Origin: Pseudomonas syringae CC1557
GTDB lineage: Bacteria; Pseudomonadota; Gammaproteobacteria; Pseudomonadales; Pseudomonadaceae
Length of the DNA stretch: 64,000 nt
Reading direction: 5' to 3'
Assembly (NCBI RefSeq): GCF_000452705.1
Contig: NZ_CP007014.1
Location: 4,403,501 to 4,467,500 of the forward strand
Shown here: positions 51,447 through 64,000 of the stretch, piece by piece
Numbering within the stretch: position 1 is the stretch's first letter
Layout: the number at the start of each line of letters is the position of its first letter
Made by a program: the position numbers and the translations under genes
Notes under the pieces: generated by a model
What the model was told of the DNA's origin: nothing
The model's database searches: none
Seen by the model: only the letters and a program-made list of their open reading frames with translations

Positions 51447-54020
51447 ATGTCATCCACGTTCACGCCTGTCGCCCGAGACCGCGCACGGCTTACACTTTCG
51501 CTACTGACCATCGCGATCCTCGGCTCAGGCCTGCAAGCACTGCCTGCCCACGCGTCCAGCGAAAATGCACCGTCGGCACGCCCGGCAGGCACCTACCGTT
51601 TCTCCATCAGCCAGCAACCGCTAGTATCAGCCCTGAATGAATTCAGCCGCATTACCGGCTGGCAAGTCGGTGTGTCATCAGAGCTGGCGCAAAACGTAAC
51701 GTCACAGGGCGCAAACGGTAATCTGAGCGCGGCAGCCGCTCTGGACAACTTGCTGGCGGGCAGCGCGCTGAGCTATCGCAACCTGGGCAACAACAATGTG
51801 GTGCTGGAAAAACGCATCGCTGGCGTCATGGCGCTTGATCAGATCACGGTGAGCGCTACGCGTCAGGCACAGGAAGTGGCCACCGTACCGAGCACTGTCA
51901 GTGTTCATTCGCGCAAACAGCTGGACCGTCAGAACGTCAATTCCATTCGCGACCTGGTGCGCTATGAGCCAGGTGTTTCAGTGGGCGGCGCAGGCCAGCG
52001 TGCCGGCACAACCGGTTACAACATTCGCGGGATCGACGGCAACCGCATCCTGACCCAGGTCGATGGTGTTGAAGTGCCCGACAGTTTCTTCACCGGCCCT
52101 TATGCGCAGACCCACCGCAACTATGTCGATCCCGAAATCGTCAAGCGCGTGGAAATCCTTCGCGGCCCAGCCTCAGCCCTGTATGGCAGCAGCGCCATCG
52201 GCGGCGTGGTCAGTTATTACACGCTGGACCCGGATGACATCATCAAACCCGGCCAGGACGTCGGCGCGCGTTTGAAAACCGGCTACAGCTCGGCAGACGA
52301 GAGCTGGCTGAACTCTGCCACGCTGGCCGGGCGGCAGGGCGAGTTCGACGCGCTGCTGCACTTGAGCCAGCGCAACGGTCACGAAACCGAATCCTATGGC
52401 GAGACGGGCGGCACTGGCCTGAGCCGCACCGAAGCCAACCCTCAGGACGCCCGCAGCACCAACGTGCTGGGCAAACTGGGCTGGAATTATAGCGATGGCG
52501 CGCGTCTGGCGCTGGCCTATGAAAAGTACAAGGATGATCGCGACAGCAACCTGAAAAACGCGGTGGGAGGACCGTTCGCCAATGGCAGCGGGCTGGGTAT
52601 GTATCGGTCGCGCGAAGGCAGCGACACCATTACCCGCGAACGCTTCGGTGTCGAGAACACGTTCAGTCTCGACAGCCTGCTGGTGGATAACCTCAAGTGG
52701 AGCCTGAACTACCAGACCGCCAGGACCGACCAGAGCACTAACGAACGTTATTTCCCGTTCTCCCGCGATGTGTATCGCCAACGCGAGACGGAGTATCAGG
52801 AAAAACAGTGGATCTTCGACGCCCAGCTGGACAAGGCATTTTCCATCGCCAGCACTGACCATGTGCTGACCTACGGCACCACCATCAAGCAACAGAAAGT
52901 CACCGGGCTGCGCAGCGGCAGCGGGACCTGTGCCCGGGTGTTCGGCTCCTGCCGTGTGGTCGGCGCCGACAGCCCGAGCGACCGACTGATCGCCACCAGC
53001 GACTTCCCGGACCCGACCATCACCAGTTATGCCCTGTTCGCGCAGGATCAGATCAGTTGGAACGACTGGACCTTCATGCCCGGCGTGCGCTACGACCACA
53101 CGCGACTCGAACCGAAGTTCACTCAGGCGTTTCTCAACTCGGTCGACCTCGCAGACCCGAGCGAGGCCAACGATGAAACGAAGACCTGGCATCGCCTGTC
53201 ACCCAAGTTTGGCGTGACTTACGCGCTGACTGACCAATACACAGGGTATGGCCAGTATGCCGAAGGGTTCCGCACGCCCTCGGCAAAATCACTTTATGGT
53301 CGCTTCGAAAACCCGAGGGCCGGCTACACAGTCGAGCCGAATCCGAACCTGAAGCCGGAAACCAGCAACAGTTATGAAACGGGGCTGCGCGGCCGCTTCG
53401 AATCCGGCTCGTTCGACATCGCCGTGTTCTATAACACGTACCGCGACTTCATCAACGAGGACGCGATCAAACCCGGCTATGACGAACTGACCTTCCAGTC
53501 GAACAATATCAAGCACGCCACCATGAAAGGCGCCGAGTTCAAGGGGCGTCTGAATCTCGACAGCCTGGGCGCGCCGAGCGGCCTGTACAGCCAGGCATCC
53601 ATTGCTTACGTCCACGGCCGCAACGATGACACGGGCGAGCCGATCAACAGCGTCAACCCGCTGACCGGAGTCATCGGCCTGGGGTATGAACAGAACACTT
53701 ACGGCAGCCTGCTGAGCTGGACGCTGGTCAAGCGCAAGACCCGCGTGGACGACAGCAACTTTCATACGCCGGATGGCACCTCCAGCCAGTTCAAGACACC
53801 GGGCTTCGGCATTCTGGACCTGACCGGCTATTACAAGGTCAGCAACGACGTGACCGTGAATGCCGGCCTGTACAACCTGACCGACAAGAAATACTGGCGC
53901 TGGGACGACGTACGCGGCTACGACGGCGTGGGTGAGGCCGGCGTGACTGCGCCTGCCAATCTTGATCGCCTGACCCAGCCGGGACGCAACTTCGGCGTCA
54001 ACGTGGTGTGGGACATCTGA
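51447..54020 (+). CDS. TonB-dependent haem receptor with a signalling domain
   Basis: The 857-residue outer-membrane protein has a signal peptide, an STN domain (about residues 50-120) that talks to FecR, a TonB-box-like DQITVSATR, a plug (YNIRGIDGNRILTQVDGVEV, LYGSSAIGGVVSYYTL) and a 22-strand barrel. FRTPSAKSLYGRFENPRAG and VEPNPNLKPETSNSYETGL match the FRAP/NPNL pattern of haem receptors, quoted here in parts. It imports haem or a haem-protein. It is followed by a terminator before the haem oxygenase gene. Confidence 0.92.
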   Translation: MSSTFTPVARDRARLTLSLLTIAILGSGLQALPAHASSENAPSARPAGTYRFSISQQPLVSALNEFSRITGWQVGVSSELAQNVTSQGANGNLSAAAALDNLLAGSALSYRNLGNNNVVLEKRIAGVMALDQITVSATRQAQEVATVPSTVSVHSRKQLDRQNVNSIRDLVRYEPGVSVGGAGQRAGTTGYNIRGIDGNRILTQVDGVEVPDSFFTGPYAQTHRNYVDPEIVKRVEILRGPASALYGSSAIGGVVSYYTLDPDDIIKPGQDVGARLKTGYSSADESWLNSATLAGRQGEFDALLHLSQRNGHETESYGETGGTGLSRTEANPQDARSTNVLGKLGWNYSDGARLALAYEKYKDDRDSNLKNAVGGPFANGSGLGMYRSREGSDTITRERFGVENTFSLDSLLVDNLKWSLNYQTARTDQSTNERYFPFSRDVYRQRETEYQEKQWIFDAQLDKAFSIASTDHVLTYGTTIKQQKVTGLRSGSGTCARVFGSCRVVGADSPSDRLIATSDFPDPTITSYALFAQDQISWNDWTFMPGVRYDHTRLEPKFTQAFLNSVDLADPSEANDETKTWHRLSPKFGVTYALTDQYTGYGQYAEGFRTPSAKSLYGRFENPRAGYTVEPNPNLKPETSNSYETGLRGRFESGSFDIAVFYNTYRDFINEDAIKPGYDELTFQSNNIKHATMKGAEFKGRLNLDSLGAPSGLYSQASIAYVHGRNDDTGEPINSVNPLTGVIGLGYEQNTYGSLLSWTLVKRKTRVDDSNFHTPDGTSSQFKTPGFGILDLTGYYKVSNDVTVNAGLYNLTDKKYWRWDDVRGYDGVGEAGVTAPANLDRLTQPGRNFGVNVVWDI

Positions 54021-55958: not shown

Positions 55959-57467
55959 ATGCGCATTCACGTCAGCTTCATCGATCGCGTCGGCATCACC
56001 CAGGAAGTGCTGGCCATTCTGGGTGGGCGCAATCTGAATCTGGACGCAGTGGAAATGGTGCCGCCCAACGTCTACATCGATGCGCCAACCCTCAGCCATC
56101 AGATGCTCGAAGAACTCAAGGATGCGCTGTTCAGGGTCAGGGGCGTCGAAGCGATCACAGTCGTGGATATCCTCCCCGGACAGCGACGCCACCTGCAACT
56201 GGACGCGCTGCTCGCCGCGATGACCGACCCGGTGCTCGCGCTGGACAGTGCGGGGCATGTGTTGCTGGCCAATCCCGCGCTCATCGCCCTCATTGGTCGT
56301 GAGCCGGCAGGTGAATCCATCGACGAACTGCTGGCAGCACCCGGTCTGCAGACAACATTGTTGGAAAACGGCTTTCGGCTGCCGTTGCGCGAGATCACCC
56401 TGGACGGTGAAGCGTTGTTGCTCGATGCGACACCGATCACCGAAGCAGGCGCGCTGATCACGCTCTACCTGCCCAGCCGGATCGGCGAACGTCTGTCGGC
56501 CTTGCACCATGATCACGCCGAAGGTTTCGATGCCTTGCTGGGCGACTCAGCGGCTATCCGCACGCTCAAGGCCCGTGCACAACGCGTTGCGACGCTGGAC
56601 GCCCCCTTGCTGATTCAGGGTGAGACCGGCACCGGCAAGGAACTTGTGGCCCGAGCCTGCCATGCCAGCAGTGCACGCCATGGCGAGCCGTTCCTAGCGT
56701 TGAATTGTGCGGCGCTCCCGGAAAATCTGGCTGAAAGCGAGCTGTTTGGCTACGCCCCCGGTGCGTTTACCGGTGCCGCGCGCGGCGGCAAGCCGGGACT
56801 CATGGAACTGGCCAACCAAGGCACCGTCTTCCTTGACGAGATCGGCGAAATGTCGCCTTACCTGCAAGCCAAACTGCTGCGTTTTCTTAACGACGGCAGC
56901 TTTCGGCGCGTTGGCGGGGATAGAGAAATCAGGGTCAATGTACGGATATTGAGCGCAACCCATCGCGACCTGGAAAAAATGGTCAGCGAAGGCACATTCC
57001 GCGAAGACCTGTTTTATCGACTTAACGTCCTCAACCTGCACGTACCGCCGTTGCGTGAGCGTGGTCAGGACATTCTGTTGCTGGCCCGCTACTTCATGGA
57101 ACAGGCCTGCGCACAGATCCAGCGCCCGGTCTGCAGACTGACGCACGCCACCTACCCTGCCCTGCTGGGCAACCGCTGGCCGGGCAATGTGCGGCAATTA
57201 CAAAACGTGATATTTCGTGCGGCTGCCATCTGCGAAGCCACTCATGTGGATATAGGCGACCTGGACATTGCAGGCACCGCAGTGGCCCGTCAGAACGACG
57301 CCCCTATTGACAGCCTAGAGAACGCTGTAGCGGCATTTGAAAAGGAATTGCTGGAAAAGCTTTACACAGATTATCCCTCCACACGCCAACTTGCGGCCCG
57401 CCTGCAAACCTCCCATACCGCCATCGCACAGCGCCTGCGAAAGTACGGAATATCTGCCAGGCCATAG
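55959..57467 (+). CDS. gcsR: TyrR/GcsR-like sigma-54-dependent activator
   Basis: The 502-residue protein has an N-terminal ACT domain (about 1-75), a PAS-like domain (about 78-175), a sigma-54 AAA+ domain (about 192-415) and a TyrR-type helix-turn-helix (about 455-502). Walker A is GETGTGKE (221-228), the sigma-54 contact loop is GAFTGA (268-273) and Walker B is GTVFLDEI (288-295). All are intact. GcsR of P. aeruginosa activates gcvH2/P2 operons for glycine use. The gcvHP genes here lie about 5 kb away. Confidence 0.88.
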   Translation: MRIHVSFIDRVGITQEVLAILGGRNLNLDAVEMVPPNVYIDAPTLSHQMLEELKDALFRVRGVEAITVVDILPGQRRHLQLDALLAAMTDPVLALDSAGHVLLANPALIALIGREPAGESIDELLAAPGLQTTLLENGFRLPLREITLDGEALLLDATPITEAGALITLYLPSRIGERLSALHHDHAEGFDALLGDSAAIRTLKARAQRVATLDAPLLIQGETGTGKELVARACHASSARHGEPFLALNCAALPENLAESELFGYAPGAFTGAARGGKPGLMELANQGTVFLDEIGEMSPYLQAKLLRFLNDGSFRRVGGDREIRVNVRILSATHRDLEKMVSEGTFREDLFYRLNVLNLHVPPLRERGQDILLLARYFMEQACAQIQRPVCRLTHATYPALLGNRWPGNVRQLQNVIFRAAAICEATHVDIGDLDIAGTAVARQNDAPIDSLENAVAAFEKELLEKLYTDYPSTRQLAARLQTSHTAIAQRLRKYGISARP

Positions 57468-57641: not shown

Positions 57642-59372
57642 ATGCAAACCCCGCCAGTAGACCTCCAGGCCGCCGAGCCGCAGTCTCGTGCCGAAACGAT
57701 CGTCGAGTCCAGACGGCAGAAAATCCTGCTGAAAACCGGTGCACTTCAGGATGCCATTTTCAACAGTGCCTATTTCTCCAGCATCGCCACCGATGAACAT
57801 GGCGTTATCCAGATTTTCAACGTCGGCGCCGAACGCATGCTCGGTTATCACTCCGAAGACGTGGTCGACAAAATCACCCCGGCGGATATTTCCGACCCTG
57901 CCGAGCTGATCATCCGTGCCGCAGCGCTGAGCCATGAGCTGAACACACCTATCACGCCGGGCTTTGAGGCGCTGGTGTTCAAGGCCTCGCGTGGCATCGA
58001 AGACATCTACGAGCTGACCTACATCCGCAAGGATGGCAGTCGCCTGTCGGCGATGGTGTCGGTGACATCATTGCGCGACAACACCGAAACCATCATTGGC
58101 TACCTGCTCATTGGCACCGATAACACGGCGCGCAAACAGGAGGAAGAAGCCCAGGCATTGCTCGATCAGCGTCTTCGGGACCAGCAGTTCTACACCCGCT
58201 CGCTGATCGAATCGAACATTGATGCGCTGATGATGACCGACCCGCAGGGCATCATTTCCGACGTCAACAAACAGATGATGGCCCTGACCGGGCGCACCCG
58301 TGACGAGTTGATCGGCGCTCCCTGCAAGAACTTTTTTACAGACCCGGCAAGCGCCGATGCGGCGATCAAACGCGTGATCAGCGAGCACAAGGTCAGCGAT
58401 TACGAGCTGACCGTGCGCGCCTACGACGGCACCGAAACAGTCGTGTCGTACAACGCCGCGACCTTTCATGATCGTGATCGCAAGCTCAAGGGTGTGTTTG
58501 CCGCTGCTCGCGACGTGACCGAGCGCAAGCGTTTCGAACGCACGCTGGAAGAGAAAAACATCGAGCTGGAGCATGCCAGCCACATGAAGTCCGAGTTTCT
58601 GGCAACGATGTCCCATGAATTGCGCACCCCATTGAACGCAATCATCGGCTTTTCGGAAGCCCTGAAGGACGGAATGGTCGGCGACATGAGTGACGCCCAG
58701 CGTGGCTATATCGGCGACATTTTCAACAGTGGCCAGCATTTGCTCTCGCTGATCAACGACATTCTTGACCTGTCCAAGGTTGAGGCCGGCATGATGAGCC
58801 TGGAGCTGGAGCAGGTCGATCTGGACGAACTGTTGAGCAACAGCCTGCTGATCGTCCGCGAACAGGCAGCGCTGCAGCGCATTCAATTGAAGTTGGAAAC
58901 CGAAGCCGACTTCGGCCTGCTGGAGCTCGACCGACGCAAGACCAAGCAGATCGTCTACAACCTGCTGGCCAACGCGGTCAAGTTCAGCGCTCCGGGTGAC
59001 TGGGTAACACTGTCGGTGCGACAGGTGCCGAGCGCACAGGCTGGCGTGCTTGATGGCGACTGGCCGACGCACGTATTTCCGCTGCCACCCGGTGACTACG
59101 AGCAGTTTCTGGAACTGAGCGTCAGTGACACCGGTATAGGCATCGCCCAGAGCGACATGAACAAGCTGTTCAAGGCGTTCAGTCAGATCGACAGTGGCCT
59201 GGCGCGTAAATTCGAAGGCACGGGGCTCGGTCTGGCGATGGTCAAGCAACTGGCCGAACTGCATGGCGGTAGCGTTGCGGTGGCCAGTGTCAAAGACTTG
59301 GGCGCGCGCTTCGTGGTCTGGCTGCCGATTCGCAAACCCGCTCCCAGGGAGGCGCAGTGGCTCACATCATGA
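57642..59372 (+). CDS. Soluble PAS-PAS sensor histidine kinase
   Basis: The 576-residue protein has two PAS domains (about 35-165 and 185-300), the His box with His325 (ATMSHELRTPLNAIIG) and a catalytic domain (DTGIGIAQSDMNKLFKAF, GTGLGLAMVKQLAELHGG). It has no membrane helix, so it senses a cytosolic signal. Its stop overlaps the start of the next receiver gene by 16 bases, so the pair is coupled. With the following GGDEF-EAL gene it forms a signalling cassette. Confidence 0.93.
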   Translation: MQTPPVDLQAAEPQSRAETIVESRRQKILLKTGALQDAIFNSAYFSSIATDEHGVIQIFNVGAERMLGYHSEDVVDKITPADISDPAELIIRAAALSHELNTPITPGFEALVFKASRGIEDIYELTYIRKDGSRLSAMVSVTSLRDNTETIIGYLLIGTDNTARKQEEEAQALLDQRLRDQQFYTRSLIESNIDALMMTDPQGIISDVNKQMMALTGRTRDELIGAPCKNFFTDPASADAAIKRVISEHKVSDYELTVRAYDGTETVVSYNAATFHDRDRKLKGVFAAARDVTERKRFERTLEEKNIELEHASHMKSEFLATMSHELRTPLNAIIGFSEALKDGMVGDMSDAQRGYIGDIFNSGQHLLSLINDILDLSKVEAGMMSLELEQVDLDELLSNSLLIVREQAALQRIQLKLETEADFGLLELDRRKTKQIVYNLLANAVKFSAPGDWVTLSVRQVPSAQAGVLDGDWPTHVFPLPPGDYEQFLELSVSDTGIGIAQSDMNKLFKAFSQIDSGLARKFEGTGLGLAMVKQLAELHGGSVAVASVKDLGARFVVWLPIRKPAPREAQWLTS

Positions 59373-59746
59373 TCGTCGAAGATAACGCAGCCAACATGCG
59401 TCTGGCCCAGTTGCTGCTGACTAGCGCCGGGCATGTCGTGCTGTGTGCAACGGACGCCGAGACCGGCCTGAAACTGGCTCGCGAGCATCAGCCTGATCTG
59501 ATCCTGATGGACATTCAGTTGCCGGAAATGGACGGCCTGAAAGCCACCTCATTATTGAAGAACGACGCCAGCACCGCAGCAATACCTGTGGTCGCACTGA
59601 CTGCGATGGCGATGAAGGAAGACGAAGAGAAAATCCGCCTGGCAGGCTGCAACGCCTACATCATCAAGCCCCTGCGCTATCAGGAGTTGTACCGGGTTAT
59701 CGATGCCCTCCTCGACAAAAGCCCGGCCCAACAGCCAACTACCTGA
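59357..59746 (+). CDS. Single-domain response regulator (receiver only)
   Basis: The 129-residue protein is a receiver domain only, with HIMIVEDNAANMRLA, the phosphoacceptor Asp52 in LILMDIQLPEMDG and the Lys in YIIKPLRYQE. It resembles DivK-type connectors, which carry phosphate between proteins and do not bind DNA. The start is within the kinase gene end. It probably links the kinase to the following REC-GGDEF-EAL protein. Confidence 0.93.
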   Translation: MAHIMIVEDNAANMRLAQLLLTSAGHVVLCATDAETGLKLAREHQPDLILMDIQLPEMDGLKATSLLKNDASTAAIPVVALTAMAMKEDEEKIRLAGCNAYIIKPLRYQELYRVIDALLDKSPAQQPTT

Positions 59747-59755
59747 GCAGACGCC

Positions 59756-61873
59756 ATGACCGAGAGCGCCGCAACGATCCTGATTGTCGATGACGATGTG
59801 CATGTACGGGACCTGCTGGAAGTTCTGCTGAAGAACCAGGGCTACCGCACGCTGACTGCAGAGTCGGGGCTAGTGGCGCTGGAGATGGTCGACCTTCATG
59901 CACCGGACCTGATCCTGCTGGACATCATGATGCCCGGCATGGACGGCTATGAGGTCGCCGAGCAACTGAAGGCCGGAAAAAACACGGCCAATATCCCGAT
60001 CATCATGCTCTCGGCACTCGACGAGCAAAGCGCGCGTCTGTCCGGGCTTGAAGCAGGTGCCGAGGAATATCTCAACAAACCCGTGGACAGTGCCGAACTG
60101 TGGTTACGGGTGCGCAACCTGCTGAGACTCAAATCGTTTGGCGATTACCTGAAAAGCCACAGCCTGATTCTCGAAGAGCAATTGCAACAGCGCACCATCG
60201 ATCTGGAACGCTTTCGTACGGTAATGGACGCTTCGGAAGATGCGATCTTCCTGATCAATCGCAACACCATGAGCCTGATCGAATTCAACCGCAGGGCCTG
60301 TCAGTTGCTGGGCTATACCGCCGAGGAACTGGCGCACAAGACGCCTGCAGAGCTGGGCGAAACCTCCATGGAGAACCTGGAGGTGGTGTACGACAAGATC
60401 ATTGCCGGTAAAGGCCCCAGCGAACCGCTGGAAACCCAGATTCGGGACAAAAGCGGTCGCGATGTTGAAGTGGAAATTCACCGCCAGGCGTATCGCACTG
60501 GTGAAGACTGGGTGATCGTCGGCATCGTCCGTGATATCACCCGACGCAAGGAAAGCGATCAACGCCTGCTGACCATGGCCCACTACGACACGCTGACCGG
60601 CCTGCCGAACCGTGACCTGTTTTTCACCAGCCTGCAGATGGGCCTTACCCAGGCCGCCATAAGTCGCTGGAAGCTCGCGGTGCTGACCGTCAACCTGGAC
60701 GGTTTCAAGAACATCAATGAAACCTGGGGCCACGTGCTGGGCGATCAGGTATTGCTGGAAGTCAGCCATCGCCTGTCGGAGTGCCTGAATGCCAGCGACA
60801 CGCTCGGACGCGTGGACGGTGATCAGTTTGCGTTGATTCTGATGATCCGCGTCGGCCAGGCCGATACCCGCCAGACACTTGAGCGCATTCGTAAAGCATT
60901 GCGAGTGCCTTTTCTGGTCGAGGGTCAAAGCATCGTAATGACCGCCAGTATCGGCATCGCGCTTTATCCGGAAGACGGCGAAGACGCACACGAGCTGGTC
61001 AGACACGCGTACACCGCGATGAACAGTGCGAAGAAGATCGGCCCGGACACCTACCGGTTTTATACCGCGCAGATGAACGCAGACGTCTCGGCGCGCCTGG
61101 ACCTTGAAGCCGCCTTGCGCGATGCCTTGGAAAAACACGCGTTCGAGATTGTCTACCAACCCAAGCTTAACCTCGTCACCGGCCAGATATGCGGGCTGGA
61201 AGCCTTGCTGCGCTGGCCGCGCCCAGGCCAGCAAGGCGTATCGCCGGCGGTTTTCGTTCCGGTACTGGAAAGCCTCGGGCTGATCGGTGAGGTCGGCAAC
61301 TGGGTAGTCGATCGTGTCTGCGCCCAGATTGCGCAGTGGCAACGCTCGGGGCTGGGGCTGTTCCAGGTGGCAGTCAATATCTCCGGCCAGCAGATTTCCA
61401 ACAGCAGCCTGGTCGCCGATATCCGTCAGGCGCTGATACGTCATCGGGTCGAACCGCAGTGGCTGGAAGTGGAACTGACAGAAAGCTCGCTGATGGAAAA
61501 TACCTCTCACACCATTGCGACCCTGGAAACCCTGAGGGCCAGCGGGGTCAGTATTTCCATCGACGATTTCGGTACCGGCTATTCAAGTCTGGCGTACCTG
61601 CGCCGATTCCCTATCGACAAGCTTAAAATCGACATTGCTTTCATTCGCGAAGTGACCAGCAACCCACAGGACGCGGCGATTGCCCGAGCAATCATCGAAC
61701 TGGCACACAGCCTGGGTCTGAAGGTCATTGCCGAAGGCGTGGAAACGCCTGAGCAACTGGCATTTCTGCGGAAAAATCAGTGCGATCAGATTCAGGGTTA
61801 CCTGATCAGCAAGCCGCTGCCGCTAGCAGAGCTTGAAACGTTTTTAAGTACACCGAAAAAGCAGTTCGGGTAG
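59756..61873 (+). CDS. REC-PAS-GGDEF-EAL response regulator
   Basis: The 705-residue protein has a receiver domain (about 8-125, Asp56), a PAS domain (about 150-265), a GGDEF domain and an EAL domain (about 440-695). The GGDEF motif is DGDQF (354-358), so it probably cannot make c-di-GMP. The EAL catalytic core is intact (EAL 482-484 and DDFGTGYSSLAYL), so it is likely a c-di-GMP phosphodiesterase. It starts 10 bp after the receiver gene and probably receives phosphate from the kinase or receiver. Confidence 0.92.
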   Translation: MTESAATILIVDDDVHVRDLLEVLLKNQGYRTLTAESGLVALEMVDLHAPDLILLDIMMPGMDGYEVAEQLKAGKNTANIPIIMLSALDEQSARLSGLEAGAEEYLNKPVDSAELWLRVRNLLRLKSFGDYLKSHSLILEEQLQQRTIDLERFRTVMDASEDAIFLINRNTMSLIEFNRRACQLLGYTAEELAHKTPAELGETSMENLEVVYDKIIAGKGPSEPLETQIRDKSGRDVEVEIHRQAYRTGEDWVIVGIVRDITRRKESDQRLLTMAHYDTLTGLPNRDLFFTSLQMGLTQAAISRWKLAVLTVNLDGFKNINETWGHVLGDQVLLEVSHRLSECLNASDTLGRVDGDQFALILMIRVGQADTRQTLERIRKALRVPFLVEGQSIVMTASIGIALYPEDGEDAHELVRHAYTAMNSAKKIGPDTYRFYTAQMNADVSARLDLEAALRDALEKHAFEIVYQPKLNLVTGQICGLEALLRWPRPGQQGVSPAVFVPVLESLGLIGEVGNWVVDRVCAQIAQWQRSGLGLFQVAVNISGQQISNSSLVADIRQALIRHRVEPQWLEVELTESSLMENTSHTIATLETLRASGVSISIDDFGTGYSSLAYLRRFPIDKLKIDIAFIREVTSNPQDAAIARAIIELAHSLGLKVIAEGVETPEQLAFLRKNQCDQIQGYLISKPLPLAELETFLSTPKKQFG

Positions 61874-62164
61874 CACCGCACCCGCCAGCGAACTGTCAGG
61901 ACGTATCGTTCCTGGCAACGGCTAGGCGAGCTGGATTTGATTCAGGGCGAACTGAACACCCTGCAGGCCGACTTGCGTCGAGACCTGGCGTACGCAGACC
62001 TGCGTAACGCCTACGGTCAGATTTTCGCCAGTGCAGGTCTGGATCCGCTGCCGTCAGAGCTGCCGTCCACCAAGGTGCAGTCGATTGCAACCGCGCTGAA
62101 TGCGCGGGAGTCACAATGGGAAGCAGGCAATATTTCCGTCGTCGCTGCCGTACCCAAGCCGTAG
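61874..62164 (+). pseudogene. Truncated TolC-family outer-membrane factor (C-terminal remnant)
   Basis: Frame +2-like reading from the stop of the GGDEF-EAL gene is open and ends at 62164. From about 61910 it reads SWQRLGELDLIQGEL and then DLRRDLAYADLRNAYGQIFA, which resembles the helical C-terminal part of TolC/OMF channels. No start codon with a ribosome site precedes it (only a TTG at 61937), and the first two-thirds of an OMF is missing. It directly abuts the signalling cassette, so the junction looks like a deletion or insertion edge. Confidence 0.65.
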
Positions 62165-62261
62165 GCTTCTGCGAGATTTGGTATCCCTTCAGTGCCCATG
62201 CGCTTCTGGGTGTAACGCCCTCTGCTCTCCTCAGCGCACCCTCACCGCGCGTCTTCTGAAA

Positions 62262-62288
62262 CGAAATCATTACAGCGTAATGATTTCG
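62262..62288. other. Perfect 12-bp inverted repeat with a 3-base loop
   Basis: CGAAATCATTAC (62262-62273) and GTAATGATTTCG (62277-62288) are exact complements across a 3-base loop. No T-run follows on the plus strand. It lies between the truncated TolC fragment and the gcvH control region and may be a terminator, or a site for a regulator. Confidence 0.6.
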
Positions 62289-62356
62289 CTCCAGACCACT
62301 GCAACCCCTTGGTATCAAGGCGTTGATCAGAAAGGCATTTTCCACTGGCACTGATC

Positions 62357-62374
62357 TGTAGCGATTCCGCTACA
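62357..62374. promoter_or_regulatory. Palindromic GcsR/TyrR-type activator site
   Basis: TGTAGCG-ATTC-CGCTACA is a perfect 18-bp inverted repeat with a 4-base centre. It matches the form TGTAACG-N4-CGTTCCG known for GcsR. It lies about 65 bases upstream of the sigma-54 promoter, an enhancer-type spacing. Confidence 0.7.
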
Positions 62375-62406
62375 GACATCAATCGCCCACCTCTCTCGTA
62401 AAACTT

Positions 62407-62419
62407 CAACCATTTGATT
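62407..62419 (-). promoter_or_regulatory. IHF-type bend site
   Basis: The minus strand reads AATCAAATGGTTG, a full match to the IHF consensus WATCAANNNNTTR. It lies between the activator site and the sigma-54 promoter, which is where IHF normally bends DNA to bring the activator to the polymerase. Confidence 0.65.
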
Positions 62420-62438
62420 TAAAAGGAAAAATCAAATA

Positions 62439-62454
62439 TGGCCGCGAAATTGCT
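62439..62454 (+). promoter_or_regulatory. Sigma-54 promoter of gcvHP
   Basis: TGGCCG-N5-TTGCT matches the sigma-54 consensus TGGCAC-N5-TTGCW. The GG (62440-62441) and GC (62452-62453) are 12 bases apart, as required. The predicted start is near 62465, leaving a leader of about 48 bases before the gcvH ATG. Confidence 0.75.
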
Positions 62455-62512
62455 AAGTCAAAGCCATTATGTTTTGCGCCAAGCGCGCCGCCTTATCATC
62501 CGAGGAGTCTGT

Positions 62513-62906: not shown

Positions 62907-64000
62907 ATGACTGACCCTATTCAACTGACCACTGCCAACGAATTCATCGCCCGCCACATTGGCCCACGCGCTGACGACGAACAGGCGATGCTGCAAACGC
63001 TCGGTTTTGACTCCATCGAAGCGCTCAGCGATAGCGTGATTCCGGAAAGCATCAAGGGCACCAGCGTGCTCAACCTGCCTGCCGGACAGAGCGAAGCTGA
63101 TGCGCTGGCGTCCATCAAAGCCATCGCCAGCAAGAACCAGCTGTTCAAGACCTACATTGGCCAGGGTTACTACAACACCCACACACCGGCCCCGATCCTG
63201 CGCAACCTGCTGGAAAACCCGGCCTGGTACACCGCATACACGCCCTACCAGCCAGAGATTTCGCAAGGCCGTCTTGAGTCGCTGCTCAATTTCCAGACCC
63301 TGATCAGCGACCTGACCGGCCTGCCGATTGCCAACGCCTCGTTGCTCGACGAAGCCACTGCAGCGGCGGAAGCGATGACGTTCTGCAAGCGCCTGAGCAA
63401 AAACAAGGGCAGCCAGCAGTTCTTCGCCTCCAGCCACTGCCACCCGCAGACCCTCGATGTATTGCGCACCCGCGCCGAGCCGCTGGGTATCACGGTTGTT
63501 GTCGCAGATGAGGCAGACCTGGGCGATGTCAGCGATTATTTCGGTGCGCTGCTGCAATACCCGGCCAGCAATGGCGACGTGTTCGATTACCGCGAGCTTA
63601 TCGAACGTTTCCACAGTGCCAACGCGCTGGTAGCGGTCGCGGCGGACCTGCTGGCCCTGACCCTGCTGACCCCTCCAGGCGAGTTTGGCGCAGACGTGGC
63701 CATCGGCAGCGCGCAACGCTTTGGCGTACCGCTGGGCTTCGGCGGCCCGCATGCGGCCTATTTCTCGACGCGCGACGCATTCAAGCGTGATATGCCAGGC
63801 CGTCTGGTCGGTGTGTCGGTGGATCGCCACGGCAAGCAGGCCCTGCGCCTCGCAATGCAGACCCGCGAACAGCATATTCGTCGCGAGAAGGCCACCAGCA
63901 ACATCTGCACCGCGCAAGTTTTGCTGGCCAACATCGCCAGCATGTACGCGGTGTATCACGGCCCGCGCGGCCTGACGCAGATCGCCAAGCGCGTTCATCA
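62907..64000 (+). CDS. gcvP: Glycine dehydrogenase (decarboxylating) P protein, N-terminal part
   Basis: The frame is open from the ATG at 62907 to the window end (about 364 codons of roughly 950). It shows P-protein sequence such as [29 protein letters not shown] and [20 protein letters not shown], given in parts. The PLP Lys and C-terminal half lie beyond the window. The enzyme releases CO2 from glycine and passes the aminomethyl group to GcvH. It is co-transcribed with gcvH from the sigma-54 promoter. Confidence 0.95.

Follow-up and report, generated by a model that had tools for sequence, protein, structure and literature searches.

The window analysed here, a stretch of 64 kb from Pseudomonas syringae CC1557, carries in its last part the beginning of a glycine cleavage operon together with a regulatory gene of the TyrR class (Table 1). 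The gene gcvH is the first gene of this operon, with gcsR nearby, and a gcvT-like ORF follows gcvP in the genome (ORFs in locus L228; gcvT was named by reading). Because the window end truncates gcvP, its score falls short of the cut-off of 859.2 set for the whole protein. No glycine riboswitch or other RNA element was detected between positions 54000 and 64000 at E values up to 1.

The gcsR-like gene lies 5 kb upstream of the gcv promoter on the same strand. Its product combines a TyrR/PhhR-type HTH (TIGR04381, 85.5 bits) with a sigma-54-interaction AAA+ domain (PF00158, E 2.3e-67) containing GAFTGA, and this combination is that of a GcsR protein. Its best whole-length model is TyrR (NF008085, 455 bits, under the model's cut-off of 576). 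The gene product shares 76-95% identity with the proteins at the named Pseudomonas loci L001-L018. The published criterion for a GcsR orthologue is an identity above 80% with the P. aeruginosa protein, and all orthologues of that 2016 paper are adjacent to gcs genes (PMC4894688). Moreover, both rpoN and ihfA were found in the window's genome.

The kinase, response regulator and GGDEF/EAL genes between gcsR and the promoter (57642..61873) are surroundings, outside the switch. This module of about 4.2 kb stands between gcsR and the enhancer in the window as well as in L001, L229, L230 and L231 (L001 and L231 probably come from the same genome); the distance from the end of gcsR to gcvH is 303-438 bp in L090, L091 and L094. 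All three GcsR-type sites described below stay with the operon despite the module. Compared with L229-L231, about 300 bp are extra between the EAL gene and gcvH (61874-62200); this piece is degraded, resembles by eye the end of an outer-membrane efflux gene and has no second copy in the genome, and a peptide typed from it by eye gave no Pfam match. In addition, three genomes of the window's clade (G115, G026 and G050; loci L232-L234 and L280-L285) keep three sites at gcvH, and no close gcsR was found around their gcvH, over about 27 kb on the upstream and 15 kb on the downstream side.

Table 1. Features of the gcsR-gcvHP region (positions within the window; offsets are from the -24 box).
Feature	Position	Strand	Basis or remark
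gcsR-like gene, 502 aa TyrR-class enhancer-binding protein	55959..57467	+	profile matches
Histidine kinase	57642..59372	+	between gcsR and gcv promoter
Response regulator	59357..59746	+	between gcsR and gcv promoter
RR-PAS-GGDEF-EAL protein	59756..61873	+	between gcsR and gcv promoter
GcsR site A (predicted), TGAAACGAAATCATTACA	62257..62274	+	-182; 17.7 bits, rank 3/63,983
GcsR site B (predicted), CGTAATGATTTCGCTCCA	62276..62293	+	-163; 22.8 bits, rank 1/63,983
Second IHF-like site (predicted)	62313..62328	-	minus-strand one-mismatch 62316-62328; plus-strand exact 62313-62325
T-tract (minus-strand A-tract)	62338..62341	.	9 bases from second IHF-like site
GcsR site C (predicted), palindrome TGTAGCGATTCCGCTACA	62357..62374	+	-82; 21.7 bits, rank 2/63,983
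Promoter-proximal IHF site (predicted)	62407..62419	-	-32
Sigma-54 promoter -24/-12, TGGCCGCGAAATTGCT	62439..62454	+	TGGC-N7-TTGC core throughout genus set
Ribosome-binding site GAGGAG	62502..62507	+	sequence
gcvH, 127 aa	62513..62896	+	TIGR00527 128.6 bits, cut-off 115.85
gcvP, cut by window end	62907..64000	+	TIGR00461 561.8 bits over 364 residues; PF02347 E 4.2e-167

Three GcsR-type sites upstream of gcvH

Ahead of gcvH, the initial annotation had recognized a perfect palindrome (TGTAGCG-N4-CGCTACA), an IHF consensus on the minus strand, a sigma-54 -24/-12 match and a ribosome site, and all of them are placed correctly. A script check returned TGTAGCGATTCCGCTACA as a perfect 7-4-7 palindrome (hereafter site C), AATCAAATGGTTG as an exact minus-strand match to the IHF consensus and TGGCCGCGAAATTGCT as GG-N10-GC, while GAGGAG is present in the sequence before the gcvH ATG; an exact IHF consensus on the plus strand at 62313-62325 had been overlooked. 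The IHF consensus is WATCAA-N4-TTR with a flanking A-tract, and exact matches on both strands of the whole window number only three (31744, 62313 and 62407), two of them in the gcvH promoter. Perfect 7-4-7 palindromes are not rare by themselves, with nine in the window; the one at site C is significant because it matches the GcsR site model and sits at a fixed place.

For P. aeruginosa, binding of GcsR to three sites of this kind has been shown, and glycine induction requires both GcsR and RpoN (PMC4894688). The promoter in the window has three 18-bp GcsR-type sites upstream of an RpoN box, with 19 bp from A to B and 81 bp from B to C. With the window's clade excluded, a weight matrix built from the remaining 133 genomes placed these sites as the top three of 63,983 scored positions, and the next-best score was 11.2 bits. 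The training sites were chosen with a consensus built partly from published sites and the window palindrome, so the rank of site C is not fully independent. The earlier reading of a single obvious site, against several in P. aeruginosa, is refuted by these three sites, which have the modal layout of the genus.

It is exceedingly improbable that the promoter is a reduced variant with a single GcsR site. Only site C is a perfect palindrome, whereas sites A and B have two and three mismatches, respectively, to TGTARCG-N4-CGYTACA, and each misses one of the published invariants, namely CG at positions 6-7 and CG or GG at 12-13 (PMC4894688), with CA at 12-13 in A and TG at 6-7 in B. However, A and B rank third and first by a model from other clades and stand at offsets conserved in the genus. 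Here only site C shows the invariants in full, and sites of other genomes depart from them in the same way as A and B.

When the window's genome (G000) was searched for TGTARCG-N4-CGYTACA with up to two mismatches, 40 places were found, among which site C is the only perfect one and site A, exactly 100 bp upstream of the palindrome, is one of the two-mismatch places. A tandem-pair pattern with three mismatches gave no match in this genome, and overall the reversed control produced about as many matches as the pattern itself; the pattern missed the window pair because the mismatches of A and B together exceed those allowed, and is hence no test of the window.

Conservation of the promoter layout across the genus

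A GcvH match was present in all 149 genus genomes searched, and 143 of them had a close match. One upstream region was taken from each of the latter (n=143, the window's genome included), and G013, G027, G028, G054, G118 and G148, with distant GcvH only (best E 1e-31 to 5e-34), were left out. Exactly three sites exceed the weight-matrix threshold in 142 of the 143 promoters; L152 has two and was excluded from the spacing tables (n=142). The offsets found in the window, -182/-163/-82 from the sigma-54 box, are the commonest layout of the genus (86/143 promoters). GcsR-like matches with up to four mismatches occur at these offsets in 88, 90 and 96 of 143 promoters, respectively, with shoulders one base off, and elsewhere average 0.17 per offset, with a maximum of 7 at -19. 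The A-B spacing is 19 bp in 141/142 promoters and 20 bp in one, and the B-C spacing is 81 bp in 114/142 and 80-82 bp in 130/142.

The sigma-54 box is likewise fixed, with the genus consensus TTGGCCGC...TTGCT. Its TGGC-N7-TTGC core lies within 260 bp of the ATG in all 143 promoters, versus 2/143 in shuffled sequence and 21/143 in the next 260 bp upstream, while GG-N10-GC alone is a weak test, with a mean of 1.5 per 260 bp. In the window, the -24/-12 box with GG-N10-GC at this fixed place ahead of the gene is that of a sigma-54 promoter. The promoter-proximal IHF site, which matches WATCAA-N4-TTR exactly in the window, is exact at -32 on the same strand in 88/143 promoters, versus 14 exact matches summed over the remaining offsets. 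The comparison with related upstream regions, which the initial annotation had proposed, shows conservation across 143 genomes; together with the P. aeruginosa work, this strongly supports its sigma-54/IHF/GcsR reading, except for the single site.

A strict pattern of site C plus sigma-54 box matched 102 places in 95/149 genomes and nothing in the control, and 100 of the 102 adjoin a gcvH match (compared by eye). It has no match in the window's genome because the core of the window's site C differs from that of the pattern. Two of the places are not beside a listed gcvH match (G015:C1:1995401 and G089:C73:56694). The adjacency to gcvH also bears on whether the sites might serve the sister regulator PhhR/TyrR instead of GcsR. 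The TyrR site TGTAAA-N6-TTTACA is similar (PMC4894688), and TyrR is the best full-length family model for the regulator; the GcsR-like CG arms, which C has and A and B each have on one side, the position of gcsR upstream on the same strand and the 100 places beside gcvH nevertheless make a PhhR/TyrR promoter very unlikely.

Natural variants of the B-C spacing measure 42, 55, 70, 71, 91 and 134 bp, with the IHF-like element between B and C present or absent. A whole-turn rule for such changes was rejected, since 91, 70, 71 and 134 bp fit it, but 55 (two genomes), 77 and 79 bp do not. The 134-bp interval, in L142, contains a long GC-rich inverted repeat, perhaps a REP-like element inserted inside the enhancer. 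Both 55-bp intervals belong to distant genomes (L092 and L166), which are without the inner IHF-like element.

Beyond the genus set, 41 family genomes gave a match, and 28 new loci were read. Five of these belong to the genus (L235-L238 and L244, with L237 a repeat of G136), and the other 23 come from the 31 genomes matched outside the genus. Three sites with a B-C spacing of 81-83 bp were found at 18 of the 23 outside loci. In genus g6 the layout is compact at all five loci: the sites over threshold stand at -130/-111/-69 in four of them and at -130/-69 in the fifth. The compact enhancers of L257-L259 and L261 have a B-C spacing of just 42 bp, with C at -69.

In the window's genome, no three-site promoter was found at the two glyA copies, sdaA or three permease loci; at one of the latter (L271) a single site scores a weak 7.2 bits, and a lone site of 16.6 bits (G000:C1:2891640) has no sigma-54-like core within 500 bp. 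Elsewhere, G086 (L263 1208-2677) and G051 (L264 1191-2663) carry three-site GcsR-type sigma-54 promoters before a separate glyA-like gene, with C at about -70 and A-B 19 bp (gene names from ORF reading), and G025 (L265 3029-4741) carries one before a CycA-like amino acid permease gene (again named by ORF reading), beside a further gcsR/gcv copy. The G025 promoter suggests that glycine uptake joined the GcsR regulon; with all three of these promoters considered, the regulon may be wider in some species.

The IHF-like element between sites B and C

In addition to the proximal site, the promoter has a second IHF-like element inside the enhancer, which matches the consensus exactly on the plus strand and with one mismatch on the minus strand and is accompanied by a T-tract. 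Column conservation in 80 non-redundant promoters of modal layout gives the element as tgCAAGGCTTTGATCC followed by the T-tract, whose four T columns have frequencies of 0.87-0.98 in 60 non-redundant promoters with both IHF-like sites. The minus-strand core with one mismatch stands precisely 40 bp beyond the first base of B in 97/142 promoters, and the element is at or near this place in 101/142 three-site promoters. An IHF match with no more than one mismatch is present in 103/142 B-C intervals, versus 3/142 intervals of equal length upstream of A.

The element is absent from 41/142 genus promoters, and no B-C IHF match with at most one mismatch was found at the 23 family loci read outside the genus. 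It is therefore not needed by GcsR promoters generally, and it arose or was kept within the genus. On a quick gcvH tree it comes and goes, with 16 changes. A spacing of 80-82 bp is found in 101/101 promoters with the element versus 29/41 without it (raw Fisher p 9e-8). Once kinship is considered, the link is not significant, either in five supported independent pairs split by spacing (median p 0.5) or in ten split by the element (median p 1), and an association between element and spacing is thus not claimed. Tests of association for the proximal IHF site and for the place of C were likewise not significant with kinship.

The N4 spacer of the element carries 1.1-1.9 bits per column, versus 0.35-0.6 in the proximal IHF site, and this conservation exceeds what IHF alone demands. 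The element might accordingly be the site of another gcv regulator, or of IHF plus another protein, rather than an IHF site. In favour of such a regulator, CAAGGCTTTGATCC is conserved including the four bases that IHF leaves free, and the motif with its T-tract is nearly unique per genome: with at most one mismatch it was found in 12/38 relatives, at the gcvH promoter in 12/12 (by eye), once in 11 of the genomes and with one further place in the window's genome, and no control sequence matched. On the other hand, the element contains a one-mismatch IHF core with a T/A-tract at a distance, and in the window an exact IHF match on the other strand. Moreover, it lies near the loop midpoint like the proximal site; by arithmetic, neither IHF place is more than about 7 bp from the centre of its loop (62325 for B-C and 62406 for C-promoter). 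With these points together, a site for another regulator, or for IHF plus another protein, appears rather unlikely.

Proposed mechanism and relation to known systems

Taken together, it is very probable that the window holds a GcsR- and sigma-54-dependent promoter of gcvH-gcvP-gcvT, at which three GcsR dimers would be joined into a hexamer with the help of two IHF bends. GcsR would sense glycine and bind the three 18-bp sites as dimers, with the distal A+B as a rigid tandem pair and the proximal C as a single site 81 bp on. IHF at 62313-62341 would bend the DNA between B and C, bringing the distal pair to C and joining the three dimers in one hexamer, while a second IHF at the proximal site would bend the DNA between C and the promoter, allowing the hexamer to reach RNA polymerase-sigma-54. 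ATP hydrolysis would then open the promoter, with transcription predicted to start near 62465.

Whether this holds as a two-hinge enhancer in most sampled members of the genus, with the dimers split 2+1, a near-unique inner IHF element (or IHF with a co-bound factor reading the conserved spacer) folding the enhancer and the second IHF bend delivering the hexamer to polymerase, is an evenly balanced proposition. If the two-hinge reading is true, IHF would control the assembly of the activator and not only its contact with the promoter. The geometry itself, three sites with steps of 19, 81 and 82 bp and two predicted bend sites, has hardly changed across a large genus. This constancy together with natural variants makes the question of how separated activator dimers form a sigma-54 hexamer testable with natural promoters. 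The corrected count of sites also matters in practice, as a one-site reading would misdirect a bench test.

The core of the system is already known, since control in P. aeruginosa is proven and GcsR and RpoN sites at the gcs cluster of P. syringae DC3000, with the orthologue PSPTO_1280, were predicted in 2016 (PMC4894688). The initial annotation had rightly cited GcsR of P. aeruginosa but left out these predictions. GcsR 3D-seq gave a single apparent peak, in minimally processed data, at the gcvH2 promoter, and further sites were weakly supported and possibly false positives according to the authors (PMC9159945). A later P. fluorescens paper also describes GcsR as an RpoN activator that responds to glycine (PMC10482368). 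The window promoter fits the published GcsR/RpoN control, apart from the invariants in A and B. IHF is unmentioned in the 3D-seq paper (PMC9159945), and where a sigma-54 review speaks of GcsR and of IHF, it places IHF at other promoters only (PMC8657755). Searches of the open-access literature, a scope outside which most subscription papers fall, found IHF at the gcvH promoter in none of the titles and abstracts listed, and open literature searches found no published description of the second element between B and C.

One of the closest counterparts is the gcs cluster of P. syringae pv. tomato DC3000, from the same species group, with PSPTO_1280, predicted sites and an RpoN box; the accessible text and legend of Fig. 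10 give no spacing, site count or IHF for it (PMC4894688). Similarly, at the gcvH2 promoter of P. aeruginosa PAO1 an RpoN site is preceded by three 18-bp sites for a TyrR-like activator, and gcvH is the first gene of the operon (PMC4894688). IHF is unmentioned in the main text of that paper, in contrast to the two IHF-like sites predicted here. The B-C element further sets the window apart from the 23 outside-genus family loci, which are without it, although no locus compared is known to be PAO1. Unlike in PAO1, the window's operon gcvH-gcvP-gcvT is without glyA and sdaA between gcvP and gcvT.

IHF-assisted sigma-54 promoters, such as Pu, nifH and pspA, have an IHF site between enhancer and promoter, and the proximal IHF site of the window has the same position. 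In contrast to these promoters generally, the window's second IHF-like site lies inside the enhancer itself, between the two groups of activator sites.
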